From NCBI GenBank assembly GCA_947595235.1, contig CANQEP010000008.1, forward strand, positions 1 to 33,276: a stretch of 33,276 nt of DNA. Reading direction: 5' to 3'. The stretch comes from an uncultured Clostridia bacterium (GTDB taxonomy: Bacteria; Bacillota; Clostridia; Christensenellales; UBA1242). How positions within the stretch are numbered: the stretch's first letter is position 1; every line of letters begins with the position of its first letter. The notes under the pieces were generated by a model. It did no database searches and was not told where the DNA came from. It worked only from the letters and a program-made list of their open reading frames with translations. Made by a program: the position numbers and the translations under genes. Of this stretch, positions 6,577 to 17,755 are shown in pieces.

Positions 6577-7548
6577 TTAAACTATATCCCAGTCGTCATC
6601 GCCATCGTCATCATCATCCCAGTCGTCATCATCGTCGTCGAAGTCATCATCGTTGTCTTCTTCTTCGTCGTCTTCGTCGTCGTCGAAGTCATCATCGTTG
6701 TCTTCTTCTTCGTCGTCTTCTTCGTCGTCGAAGTCATCGTCGTTGTCTTCATCTTCTTCGTCGTCTTCGCTAACATTTTCGTCGTTTTGCTCAGCATTGT
6801 TTTCGAAGTCGTTTGATTGGTTTTCTTTTTCGTTCTCGGGCTCGGTCTCACCCTCTAGCATTTCGAAGTCGTTTTTCTCGCCAATAAGTTCGCCGTCAAG
6901 GTCAAGGCTTTTAGGGGTATCGCCATTTGCCATGGCAACATCTTCGCTGAGCCCAAGTTTTTTCTCCATTTCTTCGTCGGTCTCTTGGATTTCGAAGTGG
7001 TTATAGAGCCTGTTGTCGTCGCTATGAATGACTTTGACCCTTTCAAGAAGTTCATTATAGTCGGGAAGTTCGTCAAGCGATGTGATGTTGAACCTTTTCA
7101 AAAACTCATCGGTTGTTCCAAACAAAACGGGCTTCCCAACCGTGTCTTTTCTTCCGACAATTTCAATGAGGTTATGCTCAAGCAAGATGTTGATTGCATA
7201 GTCCGAACTAACGCCACGGATTTCTTCAATTTCTAGCCTTGTTACGGGCTGTTTGTAGGCAATTATTGATGCCGTTTCAAGGGTTGCACGGCTAAGATTT
7301 CTTTGCCTTATTGGGTTAAGAACCTTGCTGACCTCTTCGCCATAGGCTCCGTTGGAGGCGAATTGAAGTTTGTTGTTGAACTCCAAAAGGACAATCCCCG
7401 ACCCCTCTTTATATTTGTTTTTGAGTTTTTTCACAGCATTTTTAATGTCTTGCTTTGTGGCGTCAATCTTGCTTGTTATGTCGCTAATGTCAACGGCATC
7501 GCCACTCACAAACAATATGCTTTCAAGTATGTTTTCAAGATTGTCCAT
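6577..7548 (-). CDS. scpB: Segregation and condensation protein B with a long acidic tail
   Basis: ScpB is the winged-helix partner of ScpA and SMC in the chromosome condensin. The first ~190 of 323 residues match the family, with NLENILESILFVSGDAVDI at the start and the conserved RQRNLSRATLETASIIAYKQPVTR and EIRGVSSDYAI blocks. Residues from about 215 on are extra: an Asp/Glu tail that includes a 15-residue tandem repeat (EDDEEEDNDDDFDD) and ends DDDWDIV. Most ScpB proteins stop near 190-200 residues. The start overlaps scpA by 14 nt, with AGAGGA upstream. A terminator follows at once. The core assignment is firm; the role of the tail is not known. Confidence 0.93.
   Translation of the reverse strand: MDNLENILESILFVSGDAVDISDITSKIDATKQDIKNAVKKLKNKYKEGSGIVLLEFNNKLQFASNGAYGEEVSKVLNPIRQRNLSRATLETASIIAYKQPVTRLEIEEIRGVSSDYAINILLEHNLIEIVGRKDTVGKPVLFGTTDEFLKRFNITSLDELPDYNELLERVKVIHSDDNRLYNHFEIQETDEEMEKKLGLSEDVAMANGDTPKSLDLDGELIGEKNDFEMLEGETEPENEKENQSNDFENNAEQNDENVSEDDEEDEDNDDDFDDEEDDEEEDNDDDFDDDEDDEEEDNDDDFDDDDDDWDDDDDGDDDWDIV
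6640..6770 (-). repeat. 45-bp tandem repeat encoding the ScpB acidic tail
   Basis: Three in-frame copies begin at 6640, 6685 and 6730 (GAAGTCATC...). The first two are almost identical; the third has several changes and is shorter. Each encodes about 15 residues of mixed Asp, Glu, Asn and Phe. Because the period is a multiple of three, copy-number changes would keep the frame. Confidence 0.85.
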
Positions 7549-9178: not shown

Positions 9179-10336
9179 TTATATTTTTTTGAAAATCTTT
9201 ACTAAGATATCTTTCAGTTTGATCTTTTGCACATCTTCCCTCACCACAAGTGGCATCTCGTCGGTCACGATATTTTTGTCATCAAGGACAAACAACTTAC
9301 CAATTACCTCGCCACTTTTTAATGGGGCTTTGAGTTTTTCAAATCGGTATTCAAGACTATATTTAATGTCCTCACCTTTTCTTATGAACTTTACAAGGTC
9401 ATGCTCGGGATAAAACTTCACCACCTTTTGCTTTGAAGAAACAACTTCTCTTTCGCCAAGGGGTTGGTCCTTGCTCAAAACCACCTTGTTTTCATAGTTT
9501 GAAAAGCCGTAGTTGAACATATCTGCCATTTCATTGAACCTTGTCTTGCTGTCTTTTTCTCCAATAACAACACCGATGAGCCTCATCACCCCTCGGGTTG
9601 CCGACGCGCTGAGGCAGTAGCCCGCATCGCTAGTAAACCCTGTCTTTCCGCTGTCGCAACCCTCATAGGTTCTTATTAGTCTGTTGGTGTTAACAATGTC
9701 GGTCTTTCTCCCCGACGGATGGACAAGTTCGGTCATCCAAATGGTGCTGTATTTTTTATAGATTTTGTTATCGCAGATTTTTTCATAGATTTTTGCGATA
9801 TCGTGCGCTGAAGAATAGTGGTCGATGGCTGGCAAGCCCGTGCAGTTCATAAAAGACGTGTCTTTTAGACCCATTTCCTTAACTTTGGTGTTCATTCTTT
9901 TAACGAACTCGTCTTCTGTTCCCGCGACCTTTTCGGCAAGTGCGACCGTACTGTCGTTCGCCGAGCAAACAATAACGCTCATGATAAGGTCGCCCGCCTT
10001 GTAGTCACTGCCCTCGTCCAAAAAGGCAGACGAGCCCTCGGTCTTTGCAGAATGGTGGCTGACGCGAATGAGCGTGCTCTCGTCAAACTCTCCTCTGTCC
10101 ATGGCGTCAAAAATTAACATTAGCGACGCAAGTTTTGTCATGCTGGCAATCGGCAAGTGCTTATCCATGTTTTTTTCAAAAACAATACTTCCACTTCTTT
10201 TGTCATAAAGCAGTGCAGACTTTGCCCCCTCGGCAAGATTCACCTTTTCAGAAGCAAAAACCACTGCATTTGGCATAACACTTGGCATGAAAATTGCAAG
10301 CAAGATAAACGATAAAAGTAAATACAATTTTTTCAT
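9179..10336 (-). CDS. dacF: D-alanyl-D-alanine carboxypeptidase, DacF-like
   Basis: This second S11-family carboxypeptidase has 385 residues from the chosen ATG. It has a clear signal peptide (about residues 1-29, ending near VFASE). The catalytic motifs are SMTK (S65-K68), SAN (125-127) and KTG (231-233). The C-terminal domain ends in VREDVQKIKLKDILVKIFKKI, a likely amphipathic membrane anchor. The track start 14 residues upstream (TTG) is rejected because AGAGGG lies six bases before the ATG at 10336. It follows spoIIM by 65 nt. In B. subtilis dacF lies near spoIIM and the spoIIA operon, so the DacF name rests partly on order. Confidence 0.88.
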   Translation of the reverse strand: MKKLYLLLSFILLAIFMPSVMPNAVVFASEKVNLAEGAKSALLYDKRSGSIVFEKNMDKHLPIASMTKLASLMLIFDAMDRGEFDESTLIRVSHHSAKTEGSSAFLDEGSDYKAGDLIMSVIVCSANDSTVALAEKVAGTEDEFVKRMNTKVKEMGLKDTSFMNCTGLPAIDHYSSAHDIAKIYEKICDNKIYKKYSTIWMTELVHPSGRKTDIVNTNRLIRTYEGCDSGKTGFTSDAGYCLSASATRGVMRLIGVVIGEKDSKTRFNEMADMFNYGFSNYENKVVLSKDQPLGEREVVSSKQKVVKFYPEHDLVKFIRKGEDIKYSLEYRFEKLKAPLKSGEVIGKLFVLDDKNIVTDEMPLVVREDVQKIKLKDILVKIFKKI

Positions 10337-10401
10337 TTTTTCCCTCTTTTTTATTGAATTTACTCTTATTTTCTCCAATTCTTGACAAAATATGCGTTTT
10401 T

Positions 10402-11025
10402 TTAGAAGTTAACAACAACAAAACTTTTTATAAAAATCGGCAAAATGAAACTATTTATAATAGCCGTGCCCAAAAGCCCCATAGCAAAGATGAAGAACTT
10501 GAAAACAAAAGAAGTTTCTTTGAAACTGTCGCCAAATTTGAGTTTGTAGTTTTGCCAAACCTTTGCCCGTTCATAGCCCACTCCAACTCCATAGACCATG
10601 AGCGCGATATTTATAATATTTATTGGAACAACAAACAAAATGACATTGAGCACCCCGCTTAGGCCATACATGGTGATAATCGCCGCACTTGTCAAGACCA
10701 CCAGCGCCATTTGATAAGACAAAAATAAGTAGGACAAAACAAGAGTGTATTTTGTTATTGTCAAAACAAAAATTATTATAAGCGTCAAAATAACATTCAC
10801 AAGTCGGCTATAAAAAATTGAAGTGTATGGCGCAGTCCCCGTGATGTATGAAAACATATTTTTGTCTGGGGCAGACAACAGCGCGGTGTACTTATATCCC
10901 GTCAAACTGATGTATAGCCCAAGAGCCAAGCCAACACAAACAAAAACGAGCGCAAAAAAATAATAGAGAGTATTCTCTCTAAAATGCTCTTTCATCTCTT
11001 GCAGTCTATATCCCTTTATTGCCAT
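10402..11025 (-). CDS. spoIIM: Stage II sporulation protein M-like membrane protein
   Basis: SpoIIM, with SpoIID and SpoIIP, drives septal peptidoglycan dissolution and engulfment of the forespore; it is a multi-pass membrane protein. This 207-residue product has about five hydrophobic spans (near residues 22-42, 78-98, 102-130, 131-150 and 172-200). It opens with YRLQEMKEHFRENTLYYFFALVF, similar to the cytoplasmic lead of SpoIIM. Recognition rests on hydropathy, length and the spo0A-spoIIM-dacF context more than on a sharp motif. It starts 26 nt after the spo0A stop; a TATAAT just before the ATG has no good -35. A general SpoIIM/DUF95 membrane protein is the alternative. Confidence 0.72.
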   Translation of the reverse strand: MAIKGYRLQEMKEHFRENTLYYFFALVFVCVGLALGLYISLTGYKYTALLSAPDKNMFSYITGTAPYTSIFYSRLVNVILTLIIIFVLTITKYTLVLSYLFLSYQMALVVLTSAAIITMYGLSGVLNVILFVVPINIINIALMVYGVGVGYERAKVWQNYKLKFGDSFKETSFVFKFFIFAMGLLGTAIINSFILPIFIKSFVVVNF

Positions 11026-11051: not shown

Positions 11052-11810
11052 TTATTTGACCAATACTTCCTCCTCGTCGCAGAGGTCTTTGTCGGTTATG
11101 AGTCTTGTTACTATTGTTGATATCGCCATGTTGTTTGTCAAATCCCGTGGAAGTTGCGCCCTAAGTTTCATGTTTTCTGCCGTTTGGGGCATGACGTTAA
11201 CTTTGCTCGACGCCCTGAAAAGTGCCGTACGCATACTCTTTTCAATCGCACTTGCACTTTTTCCATACTCAAGCGCAATCTCTTTGTAAAGGTTCATGGT
11301 GGAATATTCATAAGGAAAAATCATATACGCCTTTAATATTGCCTCAGAAAAATATTTGAACCCCGCATGCCTCATAGAGAATTTGTATTCATTCAAAACG
11401 TCGCAAATCTTTGACTTTATGAGCGACAAGTTGTGGCTGGGCTTTGCACTGATTTTGCGCTTTATTTCAAGAAGTTTCATGCCAAGCCTAAGGTCAAAAT
11501 TGATTTTTTCTTCTGAACTTAGATAAAAATATTTGTCGTCTTGCCGAGCCTCACTGCCAACAACCAAAATGTTTTGACAAAAATTGCTGTGAATGATATC
11601 CAGCGCGACGGCAAGCCTTTCCTTGTCTTGACCGCTCTCGTCAACAATCAAGATGTCCACCTTGTTTTGACAATGATATATCAAAAGATTGTTGCAGTTA
11701 TCATTAAAATAGGTCATTTCAAACCCAAATTCGTTGTACTCATCGGCGGTCAAAAGGTCTTTAAGATTGCCCTCAATATCATATATTAAAGTTTTTAAAC
11801 ACAAATTCAA
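11052..11810 (-). CDS. spo0A: Divergent Spo0A-like response regulator
   Basis: Spo0A is the master transcription factor of sporulation entry. This 252-residue protein lies at the spo0A position, directly after spoIVB. The C-terminal half resembles the Spo0A DNA-binding domain: VLNEYKFSMRHAGFKYFSEAI, then a helix-turn-helix with SASAIEKSMRTALFRA (about 185-200), comparable to ASRVERAIRHAIE. The N-terminal receiver half is weakly conserved. It keeps D11, D57 (in ILIVDE) and K102, but lacks the first Asp of the usual pair and the proline-glycine loop after the phospho-site. The start is TTG, with GGGGAG seven bases upstream. It has its own promoter. Whether it is still phosphorylated is open. 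Confidence 0.8.
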   Translation of the reverse strand: MNLCLKTLIYDIEGNLKDLLTADEYNEFGFEMTYFNDNCNNLLIYHCQNKVDILIVDESGQDKERLAVALDIIHSNFCQNILVVGSEARQDDKYFYLSSEEKINFDLRLGMKLLEIKRKISAKPSHNLSLIKSKICDVLNEYKFSMRHAGFKYFSEAILKAYMIFPYEYSTMNLYKEIALEYGKSASAIEKSMRTALFRASSKVNVMPQTAENMKLRAQLPRDLTNNMAISTIVTRLITDKDLCDEEEVLVK

Positions 11811-11843: not shown

Positions 11844-11872
11844 ATTTTAGCACAACAAAAAAATTTTTACAA
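11844..11872 (-). promoter_or_regulatory. Promoter of spo0A-spoIIM-dacF
   Basis: On the minus strand, TTGTAA, a 17-nt spacer and TAAAAT are present, with TG one base upstream of the -10 (extended -10). The predicted start site gives a leader of about 30 nt that contains the GGGGAG ribosome site. Four phased TTTGAA repeats lie just upstream. Confidence 0.7.
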
Positions 11873-11878
11873 ACGATT

Positions 11879-11915
11879 TTCAAAAGTTTTTCAAATTTAT
11901 TCAAAATTCTTCAAA
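11879..11915 (-). promoter_or_regulatory. Four TTTGAA repeats in helical phase upstream of spo0A
   Basis: On the minus strand TTTGAA occurs four times, at 11910-11915, 11900-11905, 11890-11895 and 11879-11884. The spacing is 10, 10 and 11 bp, so all copies face the same side of the helix. The array ends 6 bp before the -35 box. It could bind a regulator as tandem half-sites, possibly Spo0A itself, or act as a curved UP-like element. Confidence 0.55.
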
Positions 11916-11920
11916 TTGTC

Positions 11921-13072
11921 TTAGTTGTCAATCATCCAATCAATATACACCCCGAAGCCCTTTGTTGGGTCGCTTACAAAAACGTGGGTTATTGCGCCAA
12001 CAAGTTTGCCATTTTGAATGATTGGGCTACCGCTCATACCTTGAACAATACCGCCCGTCTTTTCGATAAGGCGCTCGTCAACCACTCTTATGACCATGCT
12101 CTTGTTGTTTGAGGTGGTTTGGTTAACAAGTTTGATTATCTCTATGTCAAACTCCTCGGGCTTTGCGCCGTCAACCGTTGTCAAGATAGTTGCCTTGCCT
12201 GTCCTAACGCTGTCACGACTGGCAACTTCCATTTTCCTTTCAATTTGATTTCTTTCTATATACTCTTGTTTCACCTTTCCAAAAACGCCAAAGTCTGTGT
12301 TTTTGTCGATACTTCCCGCCTCTTCGCCATTTCTTAAGAAAAGCCCTCTAAGTTCGCCCGCGGTTCCTCTTGTGCCCTTGTTAACTCCAACAATGCTACA
12401 CTTATAAATGCCCCCACCCGCAACTGGCAAAACAACGTCTGTGTCTATGTCAGTCACGGGGTGTCCAAGTGCGCCAAAGCGCAAATTGTCCTCTCGAATA
12501 TATGTGAGTGTGCCAACGCCCGCCGCATTGTCTCTTATCCAAATCCCCAGCCTATACGAAGATGTGGACGCCTCCAGCGACGGGGTGACTATTTCAAAAA
12601 ACTTCTCTTCATTTCGCCTAACACCCACCTTTACGGGCTCGCCATTACTCTCGCTCAATATCTTTTCCATGTCCATGGCAGAGGTAATATTCTTCCCGTT
12701 AACGCTAAAAATGATGTCGCCCACCTTGATGTTTTTGCCTTCGCACGGCCTTGTGTCGCCAAACGCAGTCTGGACAGAGCCAACCGCGATGACGATAACG
12801 CCCTCGCACTCAAGCGTGAACCCAAGAGGATATCCCCCAACATAAACGCTTTGACCCGCCGTCGTGACCTCGTTTTTTGCTTTTTCCTTAGCCCCAAAAA
12901 AACTCTTTATAATGTCCCAAAGGCTGGGGCGCGCGCAGACCTCATACTTTGATGTCGACGAGCAAGCAAGTGCAGTCCACTCACTTTCGCTCTTTTGGGC
13001 TCCACCAAACACGCTGAAAAATGTCAAAAGTGCAACAATAACGCAAATTAGCCTATTAAAGCAAATTTTCAT
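11921..13072 (-). CDS. spoIVB: SpoIVB, sporulation serine peptidase (S55)
   Basis: SpoIVB is made in the forespore and secreted into the intermembrane space, where it cleaves SpoIVFA and triggers sigma-K activation. From the chosen ATG it has 383 residues. It has an N-terminal membrane anchor (about 5-24), a PDZ domain (about 80-165, with GDIIFSVNGKNI) and the S55 peptidase domain. The inferred triad is H204 (in GALGHPVTD), D332 and S347 (in GMSGSP); the spacing agrees with B. subtilis SpoIVB as I know it. The track's TTG start would place a terminator-like hairpin inside the coding region, so the ATG at 13072 is preferred. It lies between recN and spo0A, the usual order. Confidence 0.93.
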   Translation of the reverse strand: MKICFNRLICVIVALLTFFSVFGGAQKSESEWTALACSSTSKYEVCARPSLWDIIKSFFGAKEKAKNEVTTAGQSVYVGGYPLGFTLECEGVIVIAVGSVQTAFGDTRPCEGKNIKVGDIIFSVNGKNITSAMDMEKILSESNGEPVKVGVRRNEEKFFEIVTPSLEASTSSYRLGIWIRDNAAGVGTLTYIREDNLRFGALGHPVTDIDTDVVLPVAGGGIYKCSIVGVNKGTRGTAGELRGLFLRNGEEAGSIDKNTDFGVFGKVKQEYIERNQIERKMEVASRDSVRTGKATILTTVDGAKPEEFDIEIIKLVNQTTSNNKSMVIRVVDERLIEKTGGIVQGMSGSPIIQNGKLVGAITHVFVSDPTKGFGVYIDWMIDN

Positions 13073-13078
13073 TCTAGA

Positions 13079-13109
13079 AAAAACCACTCTAATCATAAGA
13101 GTAGTTTTT
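13079..13109 (-). terminator. Terminator-like hairpin between recN and spoIVB
   Basis: AAAAACTACTCT and AGAGTGGTTTTT form a 12-bp stem with one wobble around a 7-nt loop, and end in a T-run on the minus strand. It lies 40 nt past the recN stop and only 6 nt before the preferred spoIVB ATG. It may end recN transcripts and also affect spoIVB expression. Confidence 0.65.
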
Positions 13110-13149
13110 GCACTGGCGAAATATATATGTATCAATTTTGAAAAAAAAC

Positions 13150-14832
13150 TTAAAATTTTGACGCGCTCTCTAACAACTCTTTTGCGTGCGACAGAGAGTG
13201 CTCGGTAAGACTGCCACTTATGAGCCTTGCAATCTCTTCCACCCTCTTTTCGCCCTTGACTTTTGCAACAGAAGTGGTGGTGGTATTATTGTTCTCTACC
13301 TTTTCGATAACAAAATGATTGTCTGCAAAACTTGCTATTTGAGGAAGATGCGTCACGCAAATGACCTGAGAAACCTTGCTGACCGCCTTCAACTTTTGCG
13401 CAAGGGTGAGCGCCATAACACCGCTAACGCCCGTGTCAATCTCGTCAAAGACAAGCGTCTGGATGCCCTCGATTTTTGCGGTGATGTTCTTGACGGCAAG
13501 CATAAATCTGCTCATCTCACCTCCGCTGGCAACGGCTTTTAGTGGTTTTAGTTCACCGCCAAGGTTTGCCGAAAACATGAACTCTATTCTGTCAAGCCCC
13601 GCGCTCGTTCTTTGCTCTATATCAATAGGCTCAAACGACACAACAAATGACGCACTCTTCATGCCAAGGTCCTTGAGCTCCTCTTTTATCTGCCTTTCAA
13701 ACTCCTTCGCGCACAACTTTCTTGCTTCGGTCAAAAGTTTTGCATCTTGCAACAATTCATCCTTATATTTTTCTCGCAGAACCTTTAATTGTTCAATGCG
13801 CTCACTCGCGTTAACCAGCCTTTCATACTCGTTTCCAACGCGCGTTCTGTACTCGTTTATCTCTTCAATGCTTGACCCGTACTTTTTCTTAAACGATGAA
13901 AGAAGGTCAAGCCTATTTTCGTTGATTTTTGCCTTTTCCTCATCAATAAACAACTTGCCAAGAAGGTCATCAAGGGTGGAAGAAATGTCGTCAATCTCTA
14001 GCCTTGACGCCTCTAGCCTTTCAACCAGCGGATTGAGGTCTTCGCAGTACTGAGCCACTCCACTCAAAAGTATGCCAGCCTTCTTTATTGTCTCGACTGC
14101 GCCTTGATACTCGTAGCCGTCGCCACTAGTGAGTTTCATGGCGCCATTTATTGCTTCCAAAATCTTTTCTTGATGCAGAACTTGATTTCTAAACGCCTTG
14201 AGTTCCTCCTCTTCACCCTCGTAGAATGAGGCTTCGTCAATTTCGTCAATTTGGTACTTATACAAATCGACAAGGCGGTTTCTCTCAAGGTCGTCGCCAT
14301 TAAATGAGTCAAGTTCAGTGATAACATCGTCGTACTTTTTCAGTGCCGACAAGTATGCGTCTTTGCACTTGACAATTTCTTTGCCGCCGAACGTGTCAAG
14401 GATTTTTATGTGGCTTTGCACTTTCAAAAGGTTTTGGTGCTCAAACTGACCGTGAAGGTCAAGAAGTGGCGAAGATAACTTCTTTAACATGCCCAAAGTG
14501 AAGATATTTCCGTTCACGCGAATCTCATTTCTCCCGTCAAGTGAGAGTCTTCGGCTTATGATAATTTCGTCGTCCTCTTCGCCCACAAGTTCTTTCAAAG
14601 TTTCTTTAACAAGAGGGCTAACGGATGAAAAAACCGCCTCAACGCTCGCCGTTTTTTCGCCATAAGAAATGAGCGACTTGTCTGCCTTTTCACCAAGCAA
14701 GAGGGACAGCGCATCAACAACAAGTGACTTGCCCGCGCCCGTCTCACCCGTGAGGACATTTAGCCCCTTAGAAAATTCTATGACTTGGCTCTTTATAAGA
14801 GCGATGTTGTTTATGCTAAGTTTGTCAAGCAT
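13150..14832 (-). CDS. recN: DNA repair protein RecN
   Basis: RecN is an SMC-like ATPase that acts at double-strand breaks. The 560-residue protein has Walker A GETGAGKS (residues 29-36) at the N-terminus and a long coiled-coil middle region (about 150-370). The C-terminal ATPase half has the ABC-type signature block ASGGEMSRFMLA and Walker B TLVFDEIDTGVSG, followed by the D-loop and CVTHLPQIA. Length and domain order are normal. It begins 9 nt after xseB. The order xseA-xseB-recN-spoIVB-spo0A is conserved in Firmicutes. Here ispA, dxs, tlyA and argR, often found between xseB and recN, are absent. Confidence 0.96.
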   Translation of the reverse strand: MLDKLSINNIALIKSQVIEFSKGLNVLTGETGAGKSLVVDALSLLLGEKADKSLISYGEKTASVEAVFSSVSPLVKETLKELVGEEDDEIIISRRLSLDGRNEIRVNGNIFTLGMLKKLSSPLLDLHGQFEHQNLLKVQSHIKILDTFGGKEIVKCKDAYLSALKKYDDVITELDSFNGDDLERNRLVDLYKYQIDEIDEASFYEGEEEELKAFRNQVLHQEKILEAINGAMKLTSGDGYEYQGAVETIKKAGILLSGVAQYCEDLNPLVERLEASRLEIDDISSTLDDLLGKLFIDEEKAKINENRLDLLSSFKKKYGSSIEEINEYRTRVGNEYERLVNASERIEQLKVLREKYKDELLQDAKLLTEARKLCAKEFERQIKEELKDLGMKSASFVVSFEPIDIEQRTSAGLDRIEFMFSANLGGELKPLKAVASGGEMSRFMLAVKNITAKIEGIQTLVFDEIDTGVSGVMALTLAQKLKAVSKVSQVICVTHLPQIASFADNHFVIEKVENNNTTTTSVAKVKGEKRVEEIARLISGSLTEHSLSHAKELLESASKF

Positions 14833-16645: not shown

Positions 16646-17755
16646 TTATTCACTGAGGCCAGGTTGCTCGCCGTCGCTACTCATTTCGTCCCCGCCATAA
16701 CCTAGACTTATTGTTGTTCCAGTTGCCTTTTCGGGTTTCGCCTGAGCGACAATTCTCACAGACCAAGGGTTTATTGGAATACTACTTGCCGGAGGCGTTG
16801 CCCCACCCGTTGCAGGTGCGGGTGAAGTGGCAGGCGCAGGTGAAGTGGCGGGTGCGGGAGACGTAGCGGGTGAAGATGACGTTGCGGGCGCAGATGAAGT
16901 GGCAGGTGCGCGATTGGATGCTGATGCTGGCTTTTGTGCTCCCGCATTTTGATGACTAACCGCTGCAGCAACAAACGCCGTTGCAACAACTGCCCCCTTC
17001 AACCTTTCAAGCACAGGAGTTGAAACCCCTTTCCCACTTTTGCCTTGTTTGAAGACAACTGGCTTCTTATCATCTTTCTTGGCGGGTTTGCCATTGTCCG
17101 ACTTTTTGGCTTGAGGTTTTGGAGTTTCAAGCATTTTCTTAAGGGCGGTCTCTTGCGACTTGTCTCCCTTCTCGCGAACCTCGTCAAGTTTACGTCTTAT
17201 TGCCTCTTTTATTGCCTTTTCCTCTTGCTCACGCTCAGAAAGGTGCCTTGTTAAGGTTCGACTTGTGAGGTCCACCTTCGCCAAACGCGAAACTCTGTTT
17301 TTGATGACAAACACATAAGGAATTTCCTTCCCGTTTTTGTCAAACATTGGAACAATGTCAAGTTGCTCATAGACAGTGGGCAGTCTTTGACCGTTCTCGT
17401 CAAACTCGGGCTCAATGCCAAGAAGTTCATATATGTCTTTCACTGACCCGTCTTCGTTATATTGAACGGGTATGCCAAGAATGGTGTAAAGGTCGGTCTT
17501 GCTTCCACCGACGAAGGAAGTGTCGCTCGGTTTTGCACTCTCTTTTATTGATTTTGAAAGTGAGCCTTTTTTCTTTCTTAGTGCCAACACCAAGAAAACT
17601 GTAACCAGCCCCACACCAACAAGCATAGTGCCCAAACCCACTGCGAATGCAAGCGCAGAGAACGCGTCAAACACAAAGCAGATTATATCAATTGCAATAA
17701 GGAAACTAAAAACCAAATATAAACTTGCAAATAACAGCTTCTTTTGTTTACTCAT
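16646..17755 (-). CDS. Unrecognised two-TM protein with short repeats and a Pro/Ala tail
   Basis: I do not recognise this 369-residue protein. Two N-terminal membrane spans (about 8-28 and 35-58) are followed by a Lys-rich boundary. Three consecutive 19-20-residue repeats then occupy about residues 89-147: LYTILGIPVQYNEDG, IYELLGIEPEFDENG and VYEQLDIVPMFDKNG. Next comes a highly charged helical stretch (about 155-215) and a Lys-rich linker. The low-complexity SPAPAT tail (about 275-320) precedes a final segment with SLGYGGDE. It starts 10 nt after asp23 and ends 12 nt before nusB, with AAGGAG upstream, so it is a genuine operon gene. In related genomes a two-TM Asp23 anchor (AmaP) often pairs with Asp23. 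This could be a distant or unrelated counterpart, but that is inference from topology and position. Confidence 0.75.
   Translation of the reverse strand: MSKQKKLLFASLYLVFSFLIAIDIICFVFDAFSALAFAVGLGTMLVGVGLVTVFLVLALRKKKGSLSKSIKESAKPSDTSFVGGSKTDLYTILGIPVQYNEDGSVKDIYELLGIEPEFDENGQRLPTVYEQLDIVPMFDKNGKEIPYVFVIKNRVSRLAKVDLTSRTLTRHLSEREQEEKAIKEAIRRKLDEVREKGDKSQETALKKMLETPKPQAKKSDNGKPAKKDDKKPVVFKQGKSGKGVSTPVLERLKGAVVATAFVAAAVSHQNAGAQKPASASNRAPATSSAPATSSSPATSPAPATSPAPATSPAPATGGATPPASSIPINPWSVRIVAQAKPEKATGTTISLGYGGDEMSSDGEQPGLSE
16812..16910 (-). repeat. 18-bp repeats encoding the Pro/Ala/Thr/Ser tail
   Basis: Five or more copies of an 18-nt unit (like GCAGGTGCGGGTGAAGTG on the plus strand) run in tandem and encode (S/T)(S/P)(A/S)PAT on the minus strand. 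The copies differ at third positions and at a few codons. The locally high GC contrasts with the rest of the window. The frame is preserved across copies. Confidence 0.75.
17315..17491 (-). repeat. Three tandem YxxLGIxPxFDENG protein repeats
   Basis: Within the unknown protein three units of about 19-20 residues follow one another. They share Y-x-x-L-G/D-I-x-P, an aromatic or hydrophobic residue, D/N-E/K-D/N-G, and a short linker. The DNA copies have diverged far more than the protein pattern, which suggests selection on the protein. Confidence 0.7.

Follow-up and report, generated by a model that had tools for sequence, protein, structure and literature searches.

The gene considered here, which we call X as a working name for a diverged Spo0A paralog, is a 252-aa ORF with a TTG start at 11810..11052 on the minus strand of the window, i.e. 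the whole 33,276-nt stretch of DNA that was analysed; the preliminary description had correctly reported an ORF in this interval, and we correct its orientation to the minus strand. Directly upstream of X lies spoIVB (11921..13135, minus strand), a synteny observed across 17 genomes of the family, with recN (13150..14832, minus strand) beyond it, while a gene for a dacF-like D-Ala-D-Ala carboxypeptidase (9179..10378, minus strand) is the syntenic neighbor downstream. The order recN-spoIVB-X-dacF is that of the classical spo0A slot and is kept within the genus, bearing out the earlier placement of X at the spo0A position. The minus strand of the window additionally codes for a small membrane protein adjoining X downstream (10402-11025) and a 369-aa protein with Pro/Ala/Ser-rich repeats (16646-17755), both without a Pfam match, and for a ScpB-like protein (6577-7548) whose long tail, rich in Asp and Glu, spans nearly 100 residues.

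The C-terminal half of X contains a Spo0A-type DNA-binding (effector) domain (residues 128-238; 11097..11429, minus strand), as had been suggested from its appearance: the Pfam model Spo0A_C matches residues 135-207 with 34.9 bits (cut-off 25), and a Foldseek search with the X model recovers 1fc3, the DNA-binding domain of Spo0A, at a TMt of 0.79 and 2.9 A. The recognition helix, delimited from the AlphaFold2 model at residues 186-205 (11196..11255, minus strand), was mapped via the 1lq1 alignment to the numbering of B. subtilis Spo0A. On this mapping X lacks the full complement of R211, E213, R214, R217 and H218: R211 is replaced by A188, R214 by K191 and H218 by T195, while E213 and R217 are kept as E190 and R194. 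The R211 position is occupied by Ala in all seven genus members, in agreement with the earlier report that an arginine contacting the 0A box had given way to alanine. Across a wider set, receiver-bearing slot copies (n=23) have R211 in 22, A215 in 22 and H218 in 23 cases; diverged slot copies (n=21) have lost R211 in 20 of 21 and retain it in one, A215 in one and H218 in two, and have kept E213 in 21/21, R217 in 19/21 and R or K at position 214 in 20/21. Spo0A is known to contact G2, C4 and G5 of TGTCGAA specifically (PMC3485338); which of these is contacted by R211 was not found in the literature searched. An R211H change has been recorded, alongside a change in DegU, in a P. polymyxa strain that has lost the ability to sporulate (PMC9195935).

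The N-terminal half (residues 1-123; 11442..11810, minus strand) presents a different picture. A Pfam search found no Response_reg match in X, and a profile built from canonical receivers found no receiver in the slot copies of the 17 family genomes with a slot Spo0A_C gene, so that the weakened receiver of the preliminary description was a correct but understated observation. D11 and D57 are indeed present in X as had been noted, but the phospho-Asp column reads D/E/N/N/D/E/D across the seven genus members; D57 is thus incidental, since the phospho-site varies even among members of the genus. The acidic pair, including D11, and the Lys are likewise not conserved in the genus alignment, and X is left without a receiver combining acidic pair, phospho-Asp and Lys. 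The AlphaFold2 model, built with six genus relatives (pLDDT 85.9, pTM 0.68), shows a receiver-like order of strands and helices from which the whole of alpha4 is missing, followed by the Spo0A helix bundle. Among the Foldseek matches of the model are 5wq0, a receiver of Spo0A (TMt 0.67), further receivers and KaiA. A set of residues, N49, R65, C78, N104, D106 and P124, is invariant in the slot copies of the genus. Based on the model we propose that this half is a pseudo-receiver, i.e. a receiver-like fold without phospho-chemistry, and the alignment columns suggest that it is maintained, yet not for phosphate.

A search of the genome (1.04 Mb, 79% complete) for a canonical spo0A elsewhere uncovered a second gene on contig C1, with a Spo0A_C match at C1:4139-4447 (139.6 bits); its protein matches Response_reg with 69.2 bits and Spo0A_C with 137.2 bits. 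Against the Spo0A equivalog model TIGR02875, whose cut-off is 200 bits, this off-locus copy scores 260.4 bits and X 18.8 bits. A canonical copy of this kind is what the preliminary description had itself named as grounds for rejecting its reading. Because an intact Spo0A lies on another contig, X is a diverged paralog and not the Spo0A of the genome, contrary to how it was first described, and the idea that X is the sole Spo0A is ruled out. The suggestion that the phosphorelay input may have changed also does not hold up well for sporulation: as the canonical Spo0A lies elsewhere, the phospho-input of sporulation is probably unchanged and stays with the off-locus copy.

We then considered the distribution of both copies among relatives, which include uncultured Clostridia metagenome assemblies from rabbit (isolate names with ‘Lapin’), goat rumen and sheep colon. 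Spo0A_C was found in 57 of 60 relatives, most with two or more copies, and in 114 of 118 genomes of the family; where a slot Spo0A_C gene was found, in 17 family genomes, the off-locus copies are of the canonical type. Elsewhere in the order, outside this family, the slot copy still has a receiver in G036, G052, G056 and G057, is weak in G058 and is effector-only (109-118 aa) in G037 and G043, and in other orders the canonical copy commonly sits in the slot. Some family members code for several effector-only Spo0A_C proteins, and such genes of about 100-150 aa occur outside the slot in G213 (L263 and L264; six Spo0A_C matches in this genome) and at L209, L234 and L060. In a tree of receiver-bearing copies, the off-locus copies of the order form one group (SH-aLRT 100) with off-locus copies of three genomes from other orders, which have a normal copy in the slot as well; a tree restricted to the effector domain places the diverged slot copies outside the off-locus group. 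From these two trees the duplication looks older than the order, with the slot copy apparently having diverged within it. The branches leading to the diverged slot copies are long, and it is chiefly synteny that places their origin in the slot lineage. Two intact receiver-bearing Spo0A proteins, one in the slot and one of the off-locus clade, are found in G061, G093 and G117 of other orders (L140, L141 and L142); this duplication is older, and the second Spo0A of Clostridium thermocellum may also belong to it.

Upstream of X we observed an array at 11865..11895 (minus strand), composed of GTTTGTAAAA (11865-11874) and two copies of TTTGAAAA (11877-11884 and 11888-11895), which we propose to be derived 0A boxes. 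The array is degenerate, with one exact box and the two TTTGAAAA elements placed 11-12 bp apart; by eye, GTTTGTAAAA extends over a plausible -35, and a plausible extended -10, TGCTAAAAT, follows on the downstream side of the array (11844..11852, minus strand). There are no 0A boxes near X, the sole TGTCGAA (28340) and the sole TTCGACA (18988) of the window being distant. Across the family, TTGTAAAA occurs in 14 of 17 intergenic regions upstream of slot copies, against 1.9 expected from shuffles, in which the commonest 8-mer of any shuffle reached at most 14 intergenic regions and 8.9 on average. The density of TTTGTAAAA in these regions is 7.0/kb versus 0.15/kb in 331 other intergenic regions of the family loci, and 0.20/kb in those with less than 22% GC. 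TGTCGAA is found upstream of none of the 17 family slot copies versus 16 of 26 canonical copies from within the family, and the new box (TTGTAAAA or TTTGTACAA) upstream of 15/17 versus 5/26. Furthermore, same-strand spacings around diverged copies peak at 10, 20 and 30 bp (9, 10 and 5 pairs; 0.11, 0.14 and 0.03 expected from shuffles), peaks that are absent upstream of the canonical copies of the family; the TGTCGAA boxes of the family are themselves also spaced 10 and 20 bp. When 118 family genomes were scanned, the perfect tandem TTGTAMAANNTTGTAMAA was found at 26 sites (11 for the backwards pattern), seven of them 27-76 bp upstream of receiverless Spo0A_C genes, including four in genomes outside the motif-discovery set.

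The new box covaries with residue 211. A held-out set from genomes outside the earlier analysis comprised 30 canonical and 30 lower-scoring copies, the latter a mixed group, many with R/K211 and without the new box, as they were drawn from among the better-scoring matches listed. The lower-scoring copies have the new box in 16/30 cases versus 6/30 for canonical copies (p=0.015) and TGTCGAA in 7/30 versus 21/30 (p=6e-4). When these held-out copies are divided by residue, the new box accompanies 12 of 13 without R/K211 versus 3 of 16 with it (p=1.2e-4); the discovery set alone gives p=0.07, all copies together 36/42 versus 5/21 (p=2e-6), and one vote per genus and class p=5e-4, figures to be read with the relatedness of the rows in mind and with 211 being, of three residues tried, the one named in the preliminary description. 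Exceptions exist in both directions, with the box present in five of the 21 R/K211 copies and missing from six of the 42 others, and residues 215 and 218 gave weaker associations that were inconsistent between discovery and held-out sets. Together, the new boxes and this covariation lend support to the initial suspicion that the DNA target had changed.

With respect to further targets, the intergenic region between spoIIR and the gene directly 3' of it, which codes for a protein of about 385-400 aa with a Rho-N-like start and no clear Pfam family (L198, L199, L200 and L253 in the genus), was set aside, because its recurring site coincides with a TTTACA-N17-TATAAT promoter. A lead for a second target is the gene for an mTERF-like protein of about 520-550 aa (PF02536, up to 82 bits), which has TTGTAAAA-type arrays upstream in G001, G002, G003, G005 and G006; such boxes were not seen upstream of it in X's genome. 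This protein is present in all seven genus genomes (L218-L224; the copy in G004 is cut by a contig end) and was not detected in any of the 29 further relatives searched, mTERF being best known from the organelles of eukaryotes.

In light of these observations, the reading we favor overall, and hold with reasonable though not full confidence, is that X is a phosphorylation-independent Spo0A derivative that reads a derived box in phased arrays and whose activity is set by its concentration through autoregulation. Under this proposal, X would be what remains in the ancestral spo0A slot, the canonical Spo0A role having come to rest with the off-locus paralog. X would have lost its phospho-input, keeping the receiver fold without the active site, and in some other families of the order the entire receiver is gone. 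With the Spo0A DNA-binding fold and the E213/R217 core kept, the changes at residue 211 and its neighbors would let X read TTTTGTAAAA, a derived 0A box in which the CG of TTTGTCGAAAA has become AA, in arrays that are phased with the DNA helix and located at its own -35 region and further upstream; how active X is would then depend on its concentration and not on phosphorylation. We infer that X itself binds boxes of the TTTTGTAAAA type, first of all at its own promoter. Autoregulation is probable; any sign ascribed to it and any regulon ascribed to X would be putative, and X may have a role in sporulation.

One alternative is that X has retained recognition of normal 0A boxes and, independently of phosphorylation, modulates the canonical Spo0A or acts on it as a dominant-negative partner, with some other factor occupying the boxes upstream of X. 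The retention of E213, R217 and a mostly basic residue 214 would be compatible with this, as would the capacity of isolated Spo0A DNA-binding domains to bind their targets without phosphorylation (PMC3485338); however, R211, A215 and H218 have changed together, the 0A box is missing from all 17 family slot copies, and the new box tracks residue 211, such that we regard this alternative as unlikely. Another factor could own the boxes instead of X, and a second alternative takes this form: the TTGTAAAA arrays would be UP elements, with which the RNA polymerase alpha subunit makes contact, or binding sites for an unrelated regulator under whose control the slot genes happen to be. They are A+T-rich, helix-phased and located over or just upstream of a -35-like region, and the recurring spoIIR/Rho-N-like site is itself promoter-associated, but an enrichment of about 35-fold over equally A+T-rich intergenic regions of the same loci is unexpected for a general promoter element, and the boxes also accompany diverged copies that lie at other loci and covary with residue 211, making this explanation less probable still. 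That X is a decaying duplicate without function is highly improbable, for despite the fast divergence of slot copies (32-46% identity within the genus), their frames are open throughout the seven genus members, the third codon position is the most variable one in each half of X in every pair compared, new invariant residues have appeared and the promoter boxes are conserved, which also disfavors a pseudogene.

Returning to X as a phosphorylation-independent derivative with its own box, a broader version, which we advance only tentatively and consider somewhat doubtful, holds that throughout this family of uncultured gut Clostridia the ancestral spo0A gene has turned into such a self-regulating factor, with an operator change from TGTCGAA to TGTAAAA coupled to residue 211 and a pseudo-receiver whose new invariant residues sense a non-phosphate signal; if true, the family would amount to a set of mutational steps, made by nature, in a single regulator and the site it binds. 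Spo0A, which serves both as a marker for sporulation and as its master switch, is often annotated from gene position and sequence similarity, and in X's genome the gene in the spo0A slot is the wrong one for such a call. As X appears to control itself via a changed DNA sequence, it would be a natural example of a regulator and its site changing together. The duplicated, diverging copies offer dozens of natural protein-operator pairs, with or without R/K211 and with a 0A or derived box, which allow direct tests of the recognition rules of Spo0A-type domains and of the loss of phospho-control after duplication.

Canonical Spo0A (TIGR02875; Response_reg plus Spo0A_C) shares with X the slot, the two-part layout, the effector fold and the E213/R217 core; X differs from it in having no phospho-active site or profile-detectable receiver, in its changes at R211, A215 and H218, in its upstream boxes and in coexisting with an intact Spo0A. 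For duplicated, truncated or pseudo-receiver forms, the literature searched yields only a C. thermocellum pair and phage truncations, and we found in it, subscription papers aside, no slot Spo0A that has become a regulator with a pseudo-receiver and a rewritten box. C. thermocellum resembles X's genome in having two Spo0A homologs, Clo1313_0637 and Clo1313_1409, and deletion of Clo1313_1409 abolished sporulation there (PMC4890492), whereas here it is the off-locus homolog that has the canonical sequence. Gut phages carry truncated, receiverless Spo0A (PMC10294663), which like X combine a Spo0A effector domain with the lack of a working receiver; unlike these phage-encoded, effector-only proteins, X is chromosomal, occupies the spoIVB slot and has kept a pseudo-receiver. 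A phage origin for X was set aside, there being no match to it in phage records. The N-terminal domain of KaiA is a pseudo-receiver, and domains of this type, recovered among the Foldseek matches, are comparable to X in placing a receiver fold without phospho-chemistry ahead of another domain; in contrast to them, the version in X arose inside the Spo0A family, is missing alpha4 and is coupled to a Spo0A DNA-binding effector.
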